Assembly: GCA_015068605.1 (NCBI GenBank) | Contig: SVKF01000001.1 | Span: 1 to 64,000 of the forward strand | DNA: 64,000 bases | Origin: Oscillospiraceae bacterium | GTDB taxonomy: Bacteria > Bacillota > Clostridia > Monoglobales > Monoglobaceae | Direction: 5' to 3' | Shown here: positions 10,193 through 62,573 of the stretch, piece after piece | Layout of the letters: each line of letters opens with the position of its first letter | How positions within the stretch are numbered: position 1 is the stretch's first letter | Translations under genes and position numbers: made by a program | The notes under the pieces: generated by a model | The model's input: only the letters and a program-made list of their open reading frames with translations | Database searches by the model: none | What the model was told of the DNA's origin: nothing

Positions 10193-10228
10193 GTGAAATC
10201 AATGGATTTTTTTGTTTTTTTCACAAAA

Positions 10229-10535
10229 GGGGATGTTAAAAAACTCCGGATCGCAAGAAAAGAGGAAAAACAGCAGGGATTGAGAAAACCTTTTGTAGAA
10301 TATATCTCTGAATATACCTAAAAACAAGGGTAAAAAATCAAAAATTTTGATTTTTTAAAAATATATTATCTTTTCATGCTACGAAACAAACTTCGCCTCT
10401 CGGAGTACCTGCGTACGCCTTCGGGTAATCCAAAGCCTTGGCTTTGGCTCAGTTTGTCCGCTTTAAAGCTTTTTTCCTATCCCCTTAAAACCAAGGCGGT
10501 GTTTAAAAAGTCTTTTTGACTTTTTAAACACCGCC
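10229..10535 (+). repeat. full-length dispersed element, copy A (family 1)
   Basis: About 307 bases that recur in opposite orientation at 59736-60040 with only scattered differences. From the left: GTTAAAAAACTCCGGATCGC, an A/T-rich palindrome (about 10334-10356), inverted AAACAAACTT / CAGTTTGT flanking a 30-base core (10396-10425), an 18-base palindrome CCAAAGCC-TT-GGCTTTGG (10431-10448), CTTAAAACCAAGG, and the terminal 41-base palindrome (10495-10535). No convincing ORF or transposase is present. It lies 22 bases beyond the stop of the M18 peptidase gene, whose transcription its terminal palindrome probably ends. Confidence 0.9.
10495..10535. repeat. 41-bp palindromic repeat, copy 1
   Basis: GGCGGTGTTTAAAAAGTC, loop TTTTT, and the perfect reverse complement: an 18-bp stem. 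It is the right end of copy A and downstream of the M18 peptidase gene. Other copies start at 16774, 29629, 32008 and 59736. Confidence 0.95.
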
Positions 10536-15864: not shown

Positions 15865-16722
15865 ATGTTTTTTATTAAATTCAGAACAATTATCATATAC
15901 ATAGCCATACTCTCTCTGTTTTTAACACTTTCAGGACTATATATTATAGCTCCGAAAACACAACATACATCATCGGGCGAAAGCATAGAAGTGCCCATAA
16001 TTATGTACCACAGCGTTTTAAAAGATAAAAACAAATCGGGAAAGTTTGTTATTACTCCCGATGATTTTGAGGCAGATTTAAAATTTTTAAAAGAAAATGG
16101 GTACACTCCTATATTTATGAGCGATTTAATTAATTTTGTCAACAATAAGTCCGATTTACCGAAAAAGCCCATAATATTAACCTTTGATGACGGTTATTAT
16201 AATAATTATCTTTATGTGCTTCCCTTACTTAAGAAATATAATATGAAATCCGTTATTTCAATCGTTGGAATATATACCGATTTATATTCTCAAAATGAGG
16301 ACAAATCCGCAGAATACGCCCACCTTGACTGGGACACCGTAAACGAAATGATGAATAGCGGATTGATAGAATTTCAAAATCATTCATACAATCTCCACAC
16401 CATGGATAATGGCAGGAACGGCTCAAAGAAAAAAATCGGCGAAAGCCAAAACGAATATGAAAAGATGCTTTCCTACGACTTAACCCTTCTTCAAACCGAA
16501 TTTTTAGAGCACACGGGCTACACCCCCACGGTTTACACATACCCATTTGGGGCTGTCAGCAAAGCATCCTATGACATAATCAAGAAACTCGGTTTTGTTT
16601 CAACTTTATCTTGCGAGAACAAAACAAACTACATTTCCCCCGGGGACACGGAAGCTTTATATATGTTAAACCGTTTTATACGACCTGCATCAAAGTCATT
16701 ACAATCTATTCTGAAAAAATAG
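15865..16722 (+). CDS. secreted/membrane polysaccharide deacetylase
   Basis: A 285-residue NodB-domain carbohydrate esterase (CE4-like). A hydrophobic segment at residues ~9-28 exports or anchors it. The domain shows IIMYHSV, the metal-binding LTFDDGYYNN (Asp108/Asp109), a second His-containing segment FQNHSYNLHTM and YPFGAVS. The likely substrate is N-acetylglucosamine or N-acetylmuramic acid of peptidoglycan or another surface glycan; the sequence does not tell which. AAAGAAAGG precedes the ATG. It is a single gene, divergent from polA and convergent with clpX, with the palindromic repeat at 16774 between them. Confidence 0.9.
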   Translation: MFFIKFRTIIIYIAILSLFLTLSGLYIIAPKTQHTSSGESIEVPIIMYHSVLKDKNKSGKFVITPDDFEADLKFLKENGYTPIFMSDLINFVNNKSDLPKKPIILTFDDGYYNNYLYVLPLLKKYNMKSVISIVGIYTDLYSQNEDKSAEYAHLDWDTVNEMMNSGLIEFQNHSYNLHTMDNGRNGSKKKIGESQNEYEKMLSYDLTLLQTEFLEHTGYTPTVYTYPFGAVSKASYDIIKKLGFVSTLSCENKTNYISPGDTEALYMLNRFIRPASKSLQSILKK

Positions 16723-16730
16723 GGTATGTA

Positions 16731-16763
16731 GCAAAATGCACCGACCACTATTTTGCGCCCATC
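16731..16763. repeat. collapsed copy of the 48-kb hairpin element (family 2)
   Basis: GCAAAATGCACCGACCAC, as at the left end of the element at 48211-48414, is joined directly to CTATTTTGCGCCCATCC, as at its right end. The middle ~150 bases are missing. This is the pattern of an internal-deletion derivative. It lies between the deacetylase stop and the 41-bp palindrome. Confidence 0.7.
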
Positions 16764-16773
16764 CTAAAGCCAA

Positions 16774-16814
16774 GGCGGTGTTTAAAAAGTCTTTTTGACT
16801 TTTTAAACACCGCC
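16774..16814. repeat. 41-bp palindromic repeat, copy 2 (probable bidirectional terminator)
   Basis: The same 18-bp arms as the other copies with loop TTTTT, located between the convergent 3' ends of the deacetylase gene and clpX. It can act as a terminator for both because each arm ends the stem near a T-rich or A-rich stretch. Confidence 0.9.
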
Positions 16815-21124: not shown

Positions 21125-21130
21125 CTCCAT

Positions 21131-21222
21131 AAAAGGGCTGTAGCAAAATAATTTTGTTTTGCTACAGCCTCTTTTGGGAATGGACGCAAAATAATTTTGT
21201 TTTATTACAGCCTCTAATTTAT
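21131..21222. terminator. bidirectional terminator with tandem family-2-like hairpins
   Basis: GGCTGTAGCAAAA (21136-21148) pairs perfectly with TTTTGCTACAGCC (21157-21169) and is flanked by AAAAG / CTTTT. A second, degenerate half-copy follows at 21180-21216 (GGACGCAAAATAATTTTG then TTTTATTACAGCCTCT). The same stem recurs at 48419-48456. It separates the convergent DUF1540 and thrC genes. Confidence 0.8.
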
Positions 21223-22712
21223 TTAAGAAATTTATTTACCGCATCCAGCATTTTTGTTTTATCACAAACATTTTCAAAACGCTTTTCTTTATTCTTTAAA
21301 GATTTAAGGCTTTTTGGAATTTTTGTTCCGGAAACTTCACTTAAAAGCTCTAATAATTCAAAATCATCTTTTCCTGCCATTTCCTCATCTCTGCCAAGGG
21401 CTGAAATAACACTTGCATTGAACTTATATGGGCTCGCAGTAGATGCAATAACCGTTTTGGTATTATCCCCTGTCTGCTCTTTATACTGCTTATACACATC
21501 AACAGCCACAGCTGTGTGGGTATCAACTGTATAACCGTGTTGATTATTGGTATTATAAATCTGAACCTTTGTGAAATAATCATCACAGCATCCTGCCCAG
21601 AATAATTCCTTAATCTGCCCAAATATATCATCCGAAACAGTATATTTTCCATTTTCACGAAGCTCATTCATAAGAGCATTTACAACTTCATCATCACAGC
21701 CTGACAAATCATAAAGCAATCTTTCAAGGTTGCTGGAAATCAAAATGTCCATTGACGGTGAAATAGTTGTATGGAATTCTCTGTTTCTGTCATAAACACC
21801 TGTTTGCATAAATTCCGTCAAAATATTGTTGCAGTTTGACGCACAAATAAGTTTATTAACCGGAAGCCCCATTTTCTTTGCATAATAAGCCGCAAGGATA
21901 TTACCAAAGTTTCCTGTCGGTACACAGATATTAATTTTATCCCCTATCTGTATCTCTCCCGTATTTACCATATCGCAGTAAGCCGACACATAATAAACAA
22001 TCTGTGGTGCAAGACGACCCCAGTTAATTGAATTTGCAGAAGATAATACATAATTTTTCTTAAGGAGAGCCGCCTTTGCTTTTTCATCCGTGAAAATCGC
22101 CTTCACGCCATTTTGCGCATCATCAAAATTCCCCTGAATACCCGAAACACAAACATTTCTGCCTTCCTGCGTAATCATCTGCAATTTTTGTATATCACTC
22201 ACACCATCGCTGGGGTAAAATACCATAATCTTTGTTCCGTCAACATCCTTAAAACCTTCAAGAGCGGCTTTTCCGGTATCCCCGGATGTTGCAACAAGGA
22301 TGACAACTGTTTTTTCTTCCCCTGTTTTCTTCATTGCCGTCGTCAGCAAATGAGGAAGAATTTGAAGCGCCATATCCTTAAAGGCACAGGTTGGTCCATG
22401 CCAAAGCTCAAGAACAAACTCCGTGTCCGAAAGTTTAACAAGAGGAGCAACCTTCACGCCAAACTTACTTCTCGAATAAGCTTTTGTCGCACACGCCTTC
22501 ACTTCTTTCACAAGATAATCCGTTAAAAATTTCTTAAGAATAAAGGTTGCTCTTTCAACATACGAAGCTTTAGCAAGTTTTTTTATATCATCCATAGAAA
22601 GCTCCGGAAATGACTCCGGAACAAATAATCCACCTTCAACAGATAATCCCTGTTTGATAGCAACCGCCGATTCAACCTTCAAATTACTATTTCTCGTACT
22701 ATTATATTTCAT
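21219..22712 (-). CDS. thrC: threonine synthase
   Basis: PLP-dependent conversion of O-phosphohomoserine to threonine. The 497-residue length fits the long (class I, yeast/E. coli-like) type. The N-terminus MKYNSTRNSNLKVESAVAIKQGLSVEGGLFVPE is typical; the PLP lysine lies in GPTCAFKDMALQ, and the phosphate-binding loops are ATSGDTGKAALEGF and CVPTGNFGNILAAYYAKKMG. No other threonine genes are adjacent. It follows the small P-loop gene after a 65-base gap containing a hairpin. Confidence 0.95.
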   Translation of the reverse strand: MKYNSTRNSNLKVESAVAIKQGLSVEGGLFVPESFPELSMDDIKKLAKASYVERATFILKKFLTDYLVKEVKACATKAYSRSKFGVKVAPLVKLSDTEFVLELWHGPTCAFKDMALQILPHLLTTAMKKTGEEKTVVILVATSGDTGKAALEGFKDVDGTKIMVFYPSDGVSDIQKLQMITQEGRNVCVSGIQGNFDDAQNGVKAIFTDEKAKAALLKKNYVLSSANSINWGRLAPQIVYYVSAYCDMVNTGEIQIGDKINICVPTGNFGNILAAYYAKKMGLPVNKLICASNCNNILTEFMQTGVYDRNREFHTTISPSMDILISSNLERLLYDLSGCDDEVVNALMNELRENGKYTVSDDIFGQIKELFWAGCCDDYFTKVQIYNTNNQHGYTVDTHTAVAVDVYKQYKEQTGDNTKTVIASTASPYKFNASVISALGRDEEMAGKDDFELLELLSEVSGTKIPKSLKSLKNKEKRFENVCDKTKMLDAVNKFLK

Positions 22713-29543: not shown

Positions 29544-29551
29544 TTGATATG

Positions 29552-29580
29552 AAACTTGATGAGATTTCATCAAGTTTTTT
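29552..29580 (+). terminator. rpsT intrinsic terminator
   Basis: AAACTTGATGA (29552-29562), loop GATT, TCATCAAGTTT (29567-29577), then a run of T. It lies 9 bases after the rpsT stop. Confidence 0.9.
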
Positions 29581-29596
29581 TATTGCCCATAGAGAA

Positions 29597-29668
29597 TGTT
29601 AAAAAACTCCGTATTCCCTTAAAACCAAGGCGGTGTTTAAAAAGTCTTTTGACTTTTTAAACACCGCC
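29597..29668 (+). repeat. internal-deletion copy of the family-1 element (copy C)
   Basis: GTTAAAAAACTCCG, identical to the left end of copy A, is joined to TATTCCCTTAAAACCAAGG and the terminal palindrome (29629-29668, loop TTTT), identical to its right end. The ~235 bases between are missing. It lies between the convergent ends of rpsT and the GH78 gene and can terminate the latter. Confidence 0.85.
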
Positions 29669-32007: not shown

Positions 32008-32048
32008 GGCGGTGTTTAAAAAGTCAAAGAAACTTTTTAAACACCGCC
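32008..32048. repeat. 41-bp palindromic repeat, copy 4 (probable fucI terminator)
   Basis: GGCGGTGTTTAAAAAGTC, loop AAAGA, then the matching arm with one mismatch at the loop end (17-bp stem). It is followed by CTTGGTTTTAA as in the other copies. It lies 13 bases beyond the fucI stop, between fucI and the rhamnosidase. Confidence 0.9.
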
Positions 32049-32061
32049 TTGGTTTTAAACT

Positions 32062-45405: not shown

Positions 45406-45445
45406 CAATTCCGGCAGAAATTTCATCAACGGAATATTACTTATA

Positions 45446-45488
45446 GAATAAAATAATGCGGTGGATTTTCCATCGCATTATTTTATTC
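45446..45488. terminator. bidirectional terminator between trmFO and the ClC gene
   Basis: GAATAAAATAATGCGGTGG (45446-45464) pairs with the complementary stretch 45470-45488 with a single G-T wobble: a 19-bp stem with a 5-base loop and A/T-rich arms on both sides. It overlaps the last codons of the ClC gene. Confidence 0.9.
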
Positions 45489-46706
45489 TTCATAAAGTTT
45501 TGAAAAAGCAAATTTCTGGCTGTTATATAAACTAAATCTGCCCGACATCATATAGCTTATACCACAGACTATCGCATAAGCAAGAATCCCGTCTGTGCCG
45601 AATATCTCAACCGCAAGCAGAACAGATGCCGCAGGACAATTAACAACACCGCAGAATAATGCAACAAACCCAAGAGCCGCAGAGAAGCCTGCCTCCAGCC
45701 CCAAAAGCGGACCAATAACACATCCAAATGTTGCTCCGATAAAGAAAGTCGGAACAATTTCGCCGCCTTTAAAGCCTGCCGCAATGGTTATAACCGTGAA
45801 AAGCATTTTCAGTATAAACGCCTCATATTGAGCTTCACCGCTCATGGCTTTTGAAATAATATCCATTCCTGCTCCGTTATAGTCATAAGACCTTACCAAA
45901 ACGGTCAAACCAACGAGCAATGCCCCTCCGATTAAACCTCTTAAATATCTGTTCGGCAAAAGCTTTTTGCTTATTTTTTCCGTCTGCTTTATGGAAGCGC
46001 AAAATATGATGCTGATTAATGCACACAAAACCGCAAGAACAATCACTTTCCCAAAAATCGTTCCGGTGAGCTCGCCCACGGAAACATTTTCAAACCTCAC
46101 AGGGGCAATGCCATAAAATTTTGAAACCAAAAATGCGGAAACCGACGATATAAGACACGGCACAAGACCTGCATAGTGGAAAACACCCACATTTGAAACT
46201 TCAAGTGCAAAAAATGCCGCCGCAACGGGTGTTCCGAACAATGCCGAAAAAACCGCACTCATTCCGCTCATAACAATAAGATGCAAATCATGTCTGTCAA
46301 GACGAAATATTTTCCCTGCGTTATACCCGATACTTCCTCCAAGCTGGAGGGCTGCTCCCTCTCTGCCTGCAGAGCCGCCAAGAAGGTGTGTTATTATCGT
46401 GCTGACAAAAATCAGCGGAGCCATAACAAGGGGAACTTTCTCCTCTGTCACCACCGAATCAATCACTCGGTTCGTATCCAATTTACCTTTCGATTTGAAT
46501 ATGTCATATAGTGCCGTTATAACAACCGCCCCAAGCGGCAACAAAAACACCAACCACAAATTTTCTCCGCGGATTTCCGTTACATAATCAACGCAAAGAT
46601 GAAAAACACTGCCAACAAAACCGCCGAGCACACCAACAACAGATGCAATAACAATCCATTTACCAAGTATCTTTATATGCTCTGCAACAGATTTCAGATA
46701 CATCAT
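45483..46706 (-). CDS. ClC-family chloride channel or exchanger
   Basis: A 407-residue membrane protein with about ten hydrophobic segments. The ClC selectivity motifs are seen as GSAGREGAALQLGGSIG (gating Glu retained, the usual Pro replaced by Ala) and GGEIVPTFFIGATFG near the C-terminal half. The retained gating Glu suits a proton-coupled exchanger. It lies 32 bases after the antiporter gene in the same direction, which suggests joint ion or pH homeostasis. Confidence 0.9.
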   Translation of the reverse strand: MMYLKSVAEHIKILGKWIVIASVVGVLGGFVGSVFHLCVDYVTEIRGENLWLVFLLPLGAVVITALYDIFKSKGKLDTNRVIDSVVTEEKVPLVMAPLIFVSTIITHLLGGSAGREGAALQLGGSIGYNAGKIFRLDRHDLHLIVMSGMSAVFSALFGTPVAAAFFALEVSNVGVFHYAGLVPCLISSVSAFLVSKFYGIAPVRFENVSVGELTGTIFGKVIVLAVLCALISIIFCASIKQTEKISKKLLPNRYLRGLIGGALLVGLTVLVRSYDYNGAGMDIISKAMSGEAQYEAFILKMLFTVITIAAGFKGGEIVPTFFIGATFGCVIGPLLGLEAGFSAALGFVALFCGVVNCPAASVLLAVEIFGTDGILAYAIVCGISYMMSGRFSLYNSQKFAFSKLYEE

Positions 46707-48060: not shown

Positions 48061-48210
48061 CAAAGCGGCTACACCGCTCGCCGCAGGTGGCGGTCGAAGC
48101 ATTTACGCTTTGTTTGCCCCTATTCATTTCGCCAAAGGCATAAATTTTGCATGGGCAATTAAATCTTGTTTTTATATGATAGGAAATATGCAATTTCCCA
48201 TCATATAAAA
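48061..48210. repeat. two stacked imperfect hairpins upstream of the antiporter
   Basis: CAAAGCG (48061-48067) pairs with CGCTTTG (48106-48112) around a C/G-rich loop containing CGCCGCAGGTGGCGG. Further on, TTTTATATGAT (48170-48180) pairs with ATCATATAAAA (48200-48210), extended inwards by GGAAAT/AATTTCC. Together with the element at 48211-48414 they fill a 490-base gap with no gene. Confidence 0.65.
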
Positions 48211-48414
48211 GGGGCCAACGCAAAATGCACCGACCACACAAAACACAAAAAGCGAATAAAAAATCATTTTAAAAAGCGTAAATGGCAAAATATGCTTCAT
48301 AAATTTCTGAATTTAAAAGTGTTTTGTGTTTTGAATAAACCTCACCTCTCGGAGTACCTATGTACGCCTTCGGGATTCGGTTTATTGGGTCTGCGCTATT
48401 TTGCGTCCATCCCC
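48211..48414 (+). repeat. 204-bp nested-hairpin element (family 2, full copy)
   Basis: Outer arms GGGG-N-ACGCAAAAT (48211-48226) and ATTTTGCGT-N-CCCC (48399-48414) pair with small gaps; ACAAAACACAAAA pairs with TTTTGTGTTTTG; and AATAAACC (48334-48341 region) pairs with GGTTTATT, presenting a 30-base tip (48345-48374). That tip is identical over 30 bases to the one in copy B of family 1 (59846-59875, reverse strand). No ORF of note. A collapsed copy is at 16731-16763. Confidence 0.85.
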
Positions 48415-48418
48415 TAAC

Positions 48419-48456
48419 GAGGCTGTAGCAAAATGAAATCATTTTGCTACAGCCTC
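48419..48456. terminator. 16-bp hairpin downstream of the ZIP gene
   Basis: GAGGCTGTAGCAAAAT (48419-48434) pairs perfectly with ATTTTGCTACAGCCTC (48441-48456). The same stem (GGCTGTAGCAAAA) is found between DUF1540 and thrC at 21136. It probably ends ZIP transcription. Confidence 0.85.
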
Positions 48457-58689: not shown

Positions 58690-59715
58690 ATGAAATTCTC
58701 AGTTGGCTATCAGGTAATGACAAATTCATCTTATATGGAATATATTGCGGAAAATAAGGAACATATTTATGAGCTTTATTTTTCCTGGGGGGATATTCCA
58801 AACGGCAGAAACAGTATGCTTTTAAACCGTGAATTATACCCATGGCAGGCACAGCAAAAACAAATTGAAGATTTGGCTTATATTTCAAAAAACGGTATAA
58901 AGCTTAATCTTCTTCTCAACGGAAACTGCTATGGTGAAAACAGTCAGGCAAGAAGCTTTTTCGTTAAAATCGGGGAAACAATCGATTATATCGCCTCCGC
59001 ATTTGGTCTTTCGTCGGTTACGACGACCTCACCGCTTATAGCAAAATTTATTCACGAAAATTTTAAAGGAATAGATGTCCGTGCTTCCGTAAATATGAAA
59101 GTCGGAAGCATTATGGGAATGGAATATATTTCCGAATATTTTGACAGCTTTTATATACAAAGGGAGCTTAACCGAAATCTTGAGAAAATTAAAGAACTTA
59201 AAAGTTGGTGCGATAAAAACAATAAAGGATTATATATGCTTGCAAACAGCGGTTGTTTAAACGATTGCTCCGCCCACACATTCCACGATAATCTTGTTTC
59301 TCACGAGGCAGATATTGCAAAAATGGATAACGCTTACGAATTTAGCGGAATTTGCCGTGAGCATCTTTCAATCGCTCATAACAGAGTGTCAATCTTAAAG
59401 GACTCAAATTTTGTCCGCCCTGAAGAAATCCGACTCTACGATGATTACTTCTGTGGTGCAAAGCTTGCCACAAGAGTCAGTCAAAATCCGATAAGAACAT
59501 TAAAAGCATACATAAGCGGCAAATACAACGGAGCCGTAACGGATTTATTAGAGCCAAACCACAGCGGAATATTCTATCCCGATATAATTGAAAACAGCAA
59601 AATTCCCGAAGGCTTTGCCAAAAAAGTTATGACCTGTGATAAAAAATGCGACACCTGCGGTTACTGTCAGAGTGTTTTAGAAGGCGCAACAATAACGCTT
59701 CCGTCCGACATATAG
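58690..59715 (+). CDS. U32-peptidase-like protein with Cys-rich C-terminus
   Basis: A 341-residue protein resembling the TIM-barrel core of U32/UbiU-type proteins: YIQRELNRNLEKIKELKSWCDKNNKGLYMLANSGCLNDCSAHTFHDNL (landmarks RELNRN and NSGCLNDCSAHTFH) and VSHEADIAKMDN; the C-terminus has CDKKCDTCGYCQ. The conserved cysteines suggest an iron-sulfur cluster rather than peptidase activity, as in UbiU/UbiV. It is co-transcribed with the AraC regulator and, by context, part of the same pathway as the divergent QueG-like unit. The function is unproven. Confidence 0.65.
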   Translation: MKFSVGYQVMTNSSYMEYIAENKEHIYELYFSWGDIPNGRNSMLLNRELYPWQAQQKQIEDLAYISKNGIKLNLLLNGNCYGENSQARSFFVKIGETIDYIASAFGLSSVTTTSPLIAKFIHENFKGIDVRASVNMKVGSIMGMEYISEYFDSFYIQRELNRNLEKIKELKSWCDKNNKGLYMLANSGCLNDCSAHTFHDNLVSHEADIAKMDNAYEFSGICREHLSIAHNRVSILKDSNFVRPEEIRLYDDYFCGAKLATRVSQNPIRTLKAYISGKYNGAVTDLLEPNHSGIFYPDIIENSKIPEGFAKKVMTCDKKCDTCGYCQSVLEGATITLPSDI

Positions 59716-59735: not shown

Positions 59736-60040
59736 GGCGGTGTTTAAAAAGTCAAAGGGACTTTTTAAACACCGCCTTGGTTCTAAGGGGATAGGAAAAA
59801 AGCTTTAAAGCGGACAAACTGAGCCAAAGCCTTGGCTTTGGGTTACCCGAAGGCGTACATAGGTACTCCGAGAGGCGAAGTTTGTTTCGTAGCTAGAAAA
59901 GATAATATATTTAAAAAAATCAAAAAATTTGATTTTTTTACCCCTGTTTTTAGGTATATTCAGGGATATATTCTACAAAAAATTTTCTCAATCCCTGTTA
60001 TTTTTCCTCTTTTCTTGCGATCCGGAGTTTTTTAACACCC
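59736..60040 (-). repeat. full-length dispersed element, copy B (family 1)
   Basis: The reverse complement of copy A (10229-10535) with substitutions and 1-base gaps. It carries the terminal 41-bp palindrome (59736-59776, loop AAAGG), the 18-base palindrome around 59824-59841, the 30-base core (59846-59875) and the left end near 60013-60040. Its middle reads through as a short ORF that is not convincing as a gene. It sits between the convergent U32-like gene and the next gene and fills that 338-base gap. Confidence 0.9.
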
Positions 60041-60053
60041 CTCTCTTTTTGAG

Positions 60054-60689
60054 CTATTTTGCTTCTGTAAGTCTGCTATAGATTTTTTTCGCATTATTAT
60101 GTCGCTCGATAGCCTTTTGACTGTTATTTTGTTCGGTTCCCGCTTTAATGGTAACAAAGTAGTAGGTTTTTTCTTTGTCAAGCCCTAACATTCCCTTGGC
60201 ATTTTGACCTATTTCACCGGAATACTCCTTATCCATTAAAATTCCATAACCGTCATCCGTGAAATTTTTTTCATACATTTCTTCCGATAATATAAATCCA
60301 CCAACCAGACCTGAAGCAAGTGAAGTTGTGAATTTGGTTGCCACAGCCACTCCGGCTTCACTCTCGGCTGCACTTTCAGGAGGCAATCTGTAATACTCCA
60401 CTTTAACAGGATGTTCTTTCCCGTCATTAAATTCTTTGCTGAGCCACTTTGTGAAAAGCTCTTGGGTGTTTTGAGGAGTTTCTTCTTCCACACCATCGTA
60501 AACATACACGCCAATCTCCAAGTCATACTTAACCTCTGTAAGCTTATCATACGCCGTGTATCCCAACAGAAGCGCTATAACCAAAATAAAAATACAACGA
60601 TATTTATAATAATCCCAAAAATATTTTATTTTTTCAATAAATGAAAATTCTTTATATTGTTCTTTCGCAAGTTGTTTATCCTTATCCAT
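60054..60689 (-). CDS. membrane-anchored protein of unknown function
   Basis: A 211-residue protein starting MDKDKQLAKEQYKEFSFIEKIKYFWDYYKYR, one transmembrane segment (CIFILVIALLLGYTAYDKL), and an outside domain of ~150 residues with no recognised motif. ATG at 60689 follows GGAG; another in-frame ATG nine codons earlier is less supported. It follows yabQ by 62 bases, where divIC usually lies in Bacillus, but its length and shape differ from DivIC. A sporulation role is possible by context only. Confidence 0.7.
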   Translation of the reverse strand: MDKDKQLAKEQYKEFSFIEKIKYFWDYYKYRCIFILVIALLLGYTAYDKLTEVKYDLEIGVYVYDGVEEETPQNTQELFTKWLSKEFNDGKEHPVKVEYYRLPPESAAESEAGVAVATKFTTSLASGLVGGFILSEEMYEKNFTDDGYGILMDKEYSGEIGQNAKGMLGLDKEKTYYFVTIKAGTEQNNSQKAIERHNNAKKIYSRLTEAK

Positions 60690-60751
60690 CAGTATTTCTC
60701 CATTTTTTGTTTTCATAAAATTATATCATTTTAAAATCTGATTGTCAAGTT

Positions 60752-62367: not shown

Positions 62368-62530
62368 ACACTTCCTGTGGTGTTCGTATTAACGAAACAA
62401 ATGTAAAACCAACAAACTATCTAAGGGAACTGTTCTCCGGGTGTGGCGCACATGCCTCCCGCTATGCGGCCAGTGGACTTGTAAAGCATTCGGGACGATA
62501 CCCACCTGCCATGCAGGTTTTTACTTTTTT
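62368..62530 (+). ncRNA. ssrS: 6S RNA (RNA polymerase inhibitor)
   Basis: A ~160-nt RNA that binds housekeeping RNA polymerase and mimics an open promoter. The ends match Firmicute 6S: CCTGTGGTGTTCGT at the 5' side and CGGGACGATACCCACCTGC ... CATGCAGG at the 3' side, so the closing stem forms; AACCAACA and CCGGGTGT lie between and pair with ATACCC. The stem GCAGG is followed by TTTTTACTTTTTTT, an intrinsic terminator. It is unlike SRP RNA: the GGAAGCAGCC tetraloop region is absent. Confidence 0.75.
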
Positions 62531-62573
62531 TCGTCTACGGCATATATGGGAAGTGTTTTTTTATCTAAAAACC

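Follow-up and report, generated by a model that had tools for sequence, protein, structure and literature searches.

A probable new REP/MITE-like family of small mobile elements in Clostridia with a tail hairpin in the terminator slot

The palindromes that lie at gene 3' ends in the window, the 64-kb stretch of DNA analysed here, are the tail of a longer interspersed repeat. When the copies are aligned on their polar side, an element of about 270 bp precedes the palindrome, here referred to as P1, and the feature therefore extends past the coordinates first assigned to it. The repeat occurs in near-identical dispersed copies with a characteristic position at genes, its core covaries and its tail hairpin matches its own left end; both the structure of the repeat and its position are well supported. 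We suggest, with a probability of roughly two in three, that Clostridia carry here a new family of REP/MITE-like elements, small, mobile and non-autonomous, in which the tail hairpin replaces the terminator of the gene.

The arms of P1, GGCGGTGTTTAAAAAGTC, occur ten times in the window and form five inverted pairs, at 10495, 16774, 29629, 32008 and 59736, exactly where the sequence-only reading had placed them. Nine of the ten arms are exact, and the right arm at 32031 has one mismatch. The chance expectation for matches to the arm with at most three mismatches is 0.07, and ten were reached in none of 100 shuffles. Four copies have the 41 bp that had been given for all five; the copy at 29629, with its 4-base loop, is 40 bp long. 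On the polar side, the flank reads TTAAAACCAA or nearly so, and the motif that had been described as a constant ACCAAGG reads GCCAAGG at 16774. The polarity itself is real, with P1 in the plus orientation at 10495, 16774 and 29629 and in the minus orientation at 32008 and 59736, but it arises at the junction with the element and not from the palindrome.

All five copies adjoin gene 3' ends, three between convergent genes and two in tandem settings, and the neighbours agree with what had been claimed for them. Among the convergent sites, P1 at 16774..16814 (+) lies between a polysaccharide deacetylase gene and clpX, 5 nt past the clpX stop codon. P1 at 29629..29668 (+) lies between rpsT (S20) and an alpha-L-rhamnosidase gene, about 50 nt past the rhamnosidase stop and separate from the terminator that rpsT has of its own at 29551-29578. 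P1 at 59736..59776 (-) is found 20 nt past the stop of the gene at 58690-59715, which converges with the gene at 60054-60716. In the tandem settings, P1 at 10495..10535 (+; 18-bp stem, 20 bp with flanking pairs, 5-nt loop) is located between two minus-strand genes, one for an M18 aminopeptidase, whose stop it follows by 22 nt, and one for prolyl-tRNA synthetase, which it precedes, while P1 at 32008..32048 (-) is downstream of an L-fucose isomerase gene.

A complete unit runs from the left end AGGGGATGTTAAAAAACTCC through some 200 bp that contain several inverted repeats to the right end TTTTTTCCTATCCCC, the spacer TTAAAACCAA and P1. Such a unit is present twice in the window, at 10228-10535 and 59736-60041, and is reduced or absent at the other three sites. 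In the first, a full A-type element, with both ends, the branched fold, the core and the spacer, occupies 10228..10494 (+), antisense to the two genes around it, with its covarying 80-nt core at 10382..10461 (+). In the second, the full A-type element at 59777..60041 (-) starts about 12 nt past the stop of the gene at 60054-60716, in the sense orientation, and has its core at 59810..59889 (-). At 29591..29628 (+) only the two ends and the spacer of an A-type element are joined to P1, so that the unit at 29591-29668 has a collapsed interior, and beside P1 at 32008 nothing is left except the flank TTTAAAACCAA at 32049-32059 (-). P1 at 16774 is instead preceded by the two ends of a B-type element (16721..16773, +), whose start overlaps the TAG stop of the deacetylase gene (ORF 15865-16722). 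Identity to the consensus used is 89-98% for most full-length copies. The left and right ends are inverted repeats (AGGGGAT...ATCCCC), and the units thus resemble MITEs in being small and non-coding, with inverted ends and many near-identical copies.

A full B-type sister unit is found at 48210..48456 (+), with left end AGGGGCCAACGCAAAATG, core at 48331-48389, right end TTTTGCGTCCATCCCC and a tail palindrome of its own, GAGGCTGTAGCAAAATGA, at 48419-48456 (+). A B-type tail palindrome without a core is located at 21126..21179, just past a small plus-strand ORF and before the stop of 21219-22712. Immediately preceding the full B-type unit is another inverted repeat, TTTTATATGATAGGAAAT (48170-48210), whose 18-nt arms are 94% complementary. 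On contig C3, an A-type and a B-type element stand head-on with one palindrome common to both. At locus L071 (G000 C19 8799-8946), an A-type left end, folded onto an inverted and nearly perfect copy of itself, lies within a B-type left end that is truncated, an arrangement that is a nested insertion or a fold-back. The window also contains a near-perfect palindrome at 45445-45489 that is neither P1 nor B-type (21-nt arms AGAATAAAATAATGCGGTGGA, 95% complementary) and a 6S RNA gene (RF00013, 83.6 bits, E 5e-15) at 62369-62556 (+).

The draft genome of this gut bacterium (1.59 Mb in 28 contigs) carries about 35 copies of P1, of which 34 could be placed, with gene context taken from simple ORF calls on drafts at loci retrieved around the copies. 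None lies in a gene; 19 are convergent, nine tandem, none divergent, and six are unresolved at sequence ends. A stop codon is found within 60 nt in 26 of the 34. This is the placement of REP-type palindromic repeats, outside genes and near 3' ends. Among the 28 resolved copies, 19 are thus convergent and none divergent, while intergenic regions of at least 60 bp in the window are 13% convergent and 20% divergent (p about 5e-11 for the convergent excess and about 0.003 for the divergent deficit). The number 19 is conservative, since the ORF caller missed rpsT and scored the site at 29629 as tandem, and a Pfam match makes it convergent. The genome-wide count that had been proposed as a check of the 3'-end bias therefore bears it out.

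The core is found well outside this genome. It occurs in 13 of the 38 family genomes, in 14 of 51 from the order and in 53 of the 391 sampled from the class, where 30 genera carry it, and the distribution is patchy. The highest count in one genome is at least 41, per-genome counts in the large searches being lower bounds. The named matches are metagenome-assembled genomes titled Clostridia, Oscillospiraceae or Ruminococcus, and where the title gives a source it is the ruminant gut. In three other genomes, the units have abrupt ends and measure about 270-300 bp, and matches of 305-346 bp are found in a fourth. Units also follow one another head to tail in arrays that repeat about every 240 bp; the SUG1177 draft has such arrays, two or three units long and likewise spaced by about 240 bp (L269 7190-7746, L253, L279, L272 and L218), with a palindrome after the last unit. 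In phage and plasmid records no match to the element was found, and the core pattern occurs in a single contig of a viral collection (L325 1137-1165, -), which may be host sequence; an origin from phages or plasmids was therefore rejected. A search of the open-access literature returned no description of the family, which does not prove that none exists.

Genes were called on both sides of 130 elements. Of these, 65 lie in convergent, 41 in tandem-sense, 21 in tandem-antisense and only three in divergent settings, and the sense bias in the tandem settings is significant (41 to 21, p = 0.015). Sense copies with a clear left end start between -4 and +15 nt from the stop codon in 36 of 45 cases. 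In eight of nine antisense tandem copies with a clear left end, the stop of the other gene lies 71-96 nt beyond the core, i.e., roughly the length of the right end plus the hairpin. From these starts near stops and the antisense spacing, the unit occupies the slot where a terminator belongs. Orthologous copies, compared as a test of selection in place, speak neither for nor against it, since most pairs at shared genes have different subtypes, or near-identical copies from sister species.

P1 resembles an intrinsic terminator in being a stable GC-based hairpin soon after a stop. Its 18-bp stem has a folding energy of -28.7 kcal/mol, compared with -16 to -18 for the terminators of three clpX genes of relatives. 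In four relatives, clpX is followed by a stem of at least 11 bp at 3-18 nt past the stop, the place that P1 takes here at 5 nt; in several other relatives another gene is found closely downstream. Some convergent gene pairs have no space for a terminator besides P1. It is therefore likely that P1 ends transcription of a gene or a gene pair. The proposal that the palindromes are bidirectional terminators is plausible from the placement at clpX and the hairpins of relatives, although four of the five P1 copies in the window have a poor T-run. In 35 copies, the first five nucleotides after P1 are 62% T, with TTT in 19.

The tail hairpin is also related to the unit that it follows. A hairpin of at least ten pairs is present within 75 nt of the right end in 82 of 138 units, and in none of the shuffles. 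The arms vary between genomes, yet they resemble the left end of the same unit: in 43 units, the mean score of the arm against its own left end is 9.5, compared with 4.9 for shuffled left ends, and it exceeds all 300 permutations among units (mean 8.7, maximum 9.3). In the arrays, the left end of the next unit occupies the place where the hairpin otherwise stands. From this it can be speculated that the tail hairpin is the start of a next unit, folded back and copied.

Compared with shuffled sequence, the unit has a far stronger fold on either strand and when treated as DNA (z about -7), in which the left and right ends pair and enclose several arms. For a covariation test, 107 varied copies were collected with a covariance model of the 80-nt core. 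Changes on both sides are seen in 22 of 24 pairs, and the covariation score is 0.258, against 0.095 when shuffled and at most 0.063 with slid partners. The alignment was fitted to the structure and is thus biased toward covariation; however, with an effect of this size the core fold is secure. A fold preserved for the transcript would be expected to show more G-U than A-C mismatches. On the sense strand of the core, G-U and A-C mismatches number 28 and 26 when three special pairs, two mostly G-U and one mostly A-C, are excluded, and in the tail hairpins they number 30 and 45. The lack of a G-U excess points to folded DNA or arm-to-arm correction rather than to RNA, although a role as RNA is conceivable. 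At gathering scores, Rfam 15 contains no match to a known structured RNA family, and the weaker hits look like chance.

The balance of mismatches also weighs against the idea that the unit is a functional 3'-UTR RNA, i.e., a stabiliser, a processing signal or a source of small RNA, which is under selection in the transcript and only secondarily mobile. Strong covariation, the placement directly after stops and the tandem sense bias all speak for such an RNA. However, in addition to the missing G-U excess, 21 copies are antisense, many genomes in the patchy distribution have no copy at all and no Rfam family is matched, which makes this explanation unlikely. An ordinary MITE of a TIR transposase, whose terminal inverted repeats would be the ends and whose collapsed second copy would be the palindrome, agrees with the inverted ends, the similar hairpin arms and the units with collapsed interiors. 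On the other hand, there is no target-site duplication, as 56 units show no excess of shared flanking words (3.77 versus 3.62 +- 0.11 permuted), the outer arm sequence varies between genomes with the pairing kept, and a covarying interior fold is not needed in a plain TIR element; we consider this slightly less likely still.

That the units are true REP elements, moved by a transposase of the RAYT type (REP-associated tyrosine transposase), is improbable, even though they share the habit of REPs (PMC3733652) and RAYT-like genes occur in five genomes of the order, all five with elements (Fisher p = 0.0009, an optimistic value since the genomes are related). No element flanks a RAYT-like gene in these five genomes, whose drafts are incomplete, the three RAYT-like proteins tested score just under the curated cut-off, and the element-rich drafts G000 and G044 have no such gene. 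Further, there is no constant GTAG or CGTC tag, the polar flank being TTAAAACCAA here and another in other genomes. RAYT was thus rejected as the mobiliser on the basis of co-occurrence without flanking elements and of scores below the cut-off. The RAYT-like genes themselves are located in L373 (1134-1871 and 2764-3510, -), L374 (1563-2309, +) and L378 (1129-1953 and 3485-4270, -); they are paired in two genomes, and one copy is flanked by short hairpins of its own (AAAAGAGACGAC...). Identical arms repeated in inverted pairs at convergent 3' ends also recall paired uptake signals that act as terminators, as in Neisseria, but, with the exception of one truncated unit, the genome has no single arms, and the copies number about 35 rather than hundreds, so such an origin is hardly credible. 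A broader claim would be that the units form an undescribed class of structured mobile elements, widespread in Clostridia, whose movement would differ from that of TIR transposons and RAYT/REP systems and would act on folded DNA. The units would home to the terminator slot at stop codons, and snap-back copying of the left end would produce the tail hairpin and so give genes new terminators. This is rather unlikely, and we put it forward only tentatively.

In the preferred reading, a new REP/MITE-like family, each full unit comprises a left end, a branched fold with the covarying core, a pairing right end, a spacer and a near-perfect palindrome that resembles the left end. An enzyme acting in trans on the folded DNA would move the units, which would have multiplied within the genome and among Clostridia and are retained almost only beside stop codons, in the terminator slot. 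There the palindrome would most likely serve as an intrinsic terminator, perhaps in both directions, for one gene or for two, and an insertion at a gene end would therefore be harmless or useful. The earlier suggestion of palindromes spread by mobile-element ends was thus close, as P1 is the tail hairpin of an interspersed, near-identical repeat. No polymorphic insertion or empty site was observed, which counts against this reading, as do the absence of a signal for target-site duplication, the poor T-runs after P1 in the window and searches that turned up no mobilising enzyme.

If the reading is right, the terminator slot of many genes has been captured by a repeat family, which would be a natural example of terminators provided by selfish DNA. 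With the core in about one seventh of the class genomes sampled, this unnamed family would be common to many Clostridia, and its covarying core puts a search for the mobilising enzyme within reach. Many contig ends also carry near-identical copies, and the family therefore probably breaks draft assemblies of its host bacteria.

Among known systems, the REP, BIME and REPIN sequences are similar in being dispersed palindromic repeats with tandem arrays and compensatory hairpin changes, placed near 3' ends between convergent or same-direction genes (PMC3733652, PMC3116915). However, the Clostridia unit is larger (about 270-310 bp), has a branched covarying core, and lacks both the GTAG/CGTC tag and a RAYT gene flanked by copies; the survey in PMC3733652 lists GTAG and CGTC repeats in phyla other than that of Clostridia. 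The terminators built from uptake sequences in Neisseria (PMC1852404) likewise use one arm sequence in inverted pairs to form terminator-like hairpins at gene 3' ends, but the arms of P1 are not found singly, one truncated unit aside, and belong to a larger repeat unit. The structured RNA candidates from the human microbiome (PMC8040213) are also palindromic and mostly predicted to be intrinsic terminators or REP-like; the examples in the main text are from Bacteroidetes, and that text names neither Ruminococcaceae nor Oscillospiraceae. MITEs, including bcr1-bcr3 of the Gram-positive Bacillus cereus group, are small, non-coding, dispersed repeats that are folded, have inverted ends and often lie in UTRs (PMC3446304). 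In contrast to these, the Clostridia units have no target duplication that we could find, a tail palindrome matched to the left end and a position tied to stops. Because the tests for a tag, for a flanking RAYT gene and for target duplication all failed, we do not file the unit as a REP or as an ordinary MITE; nevertheless, it works like them.
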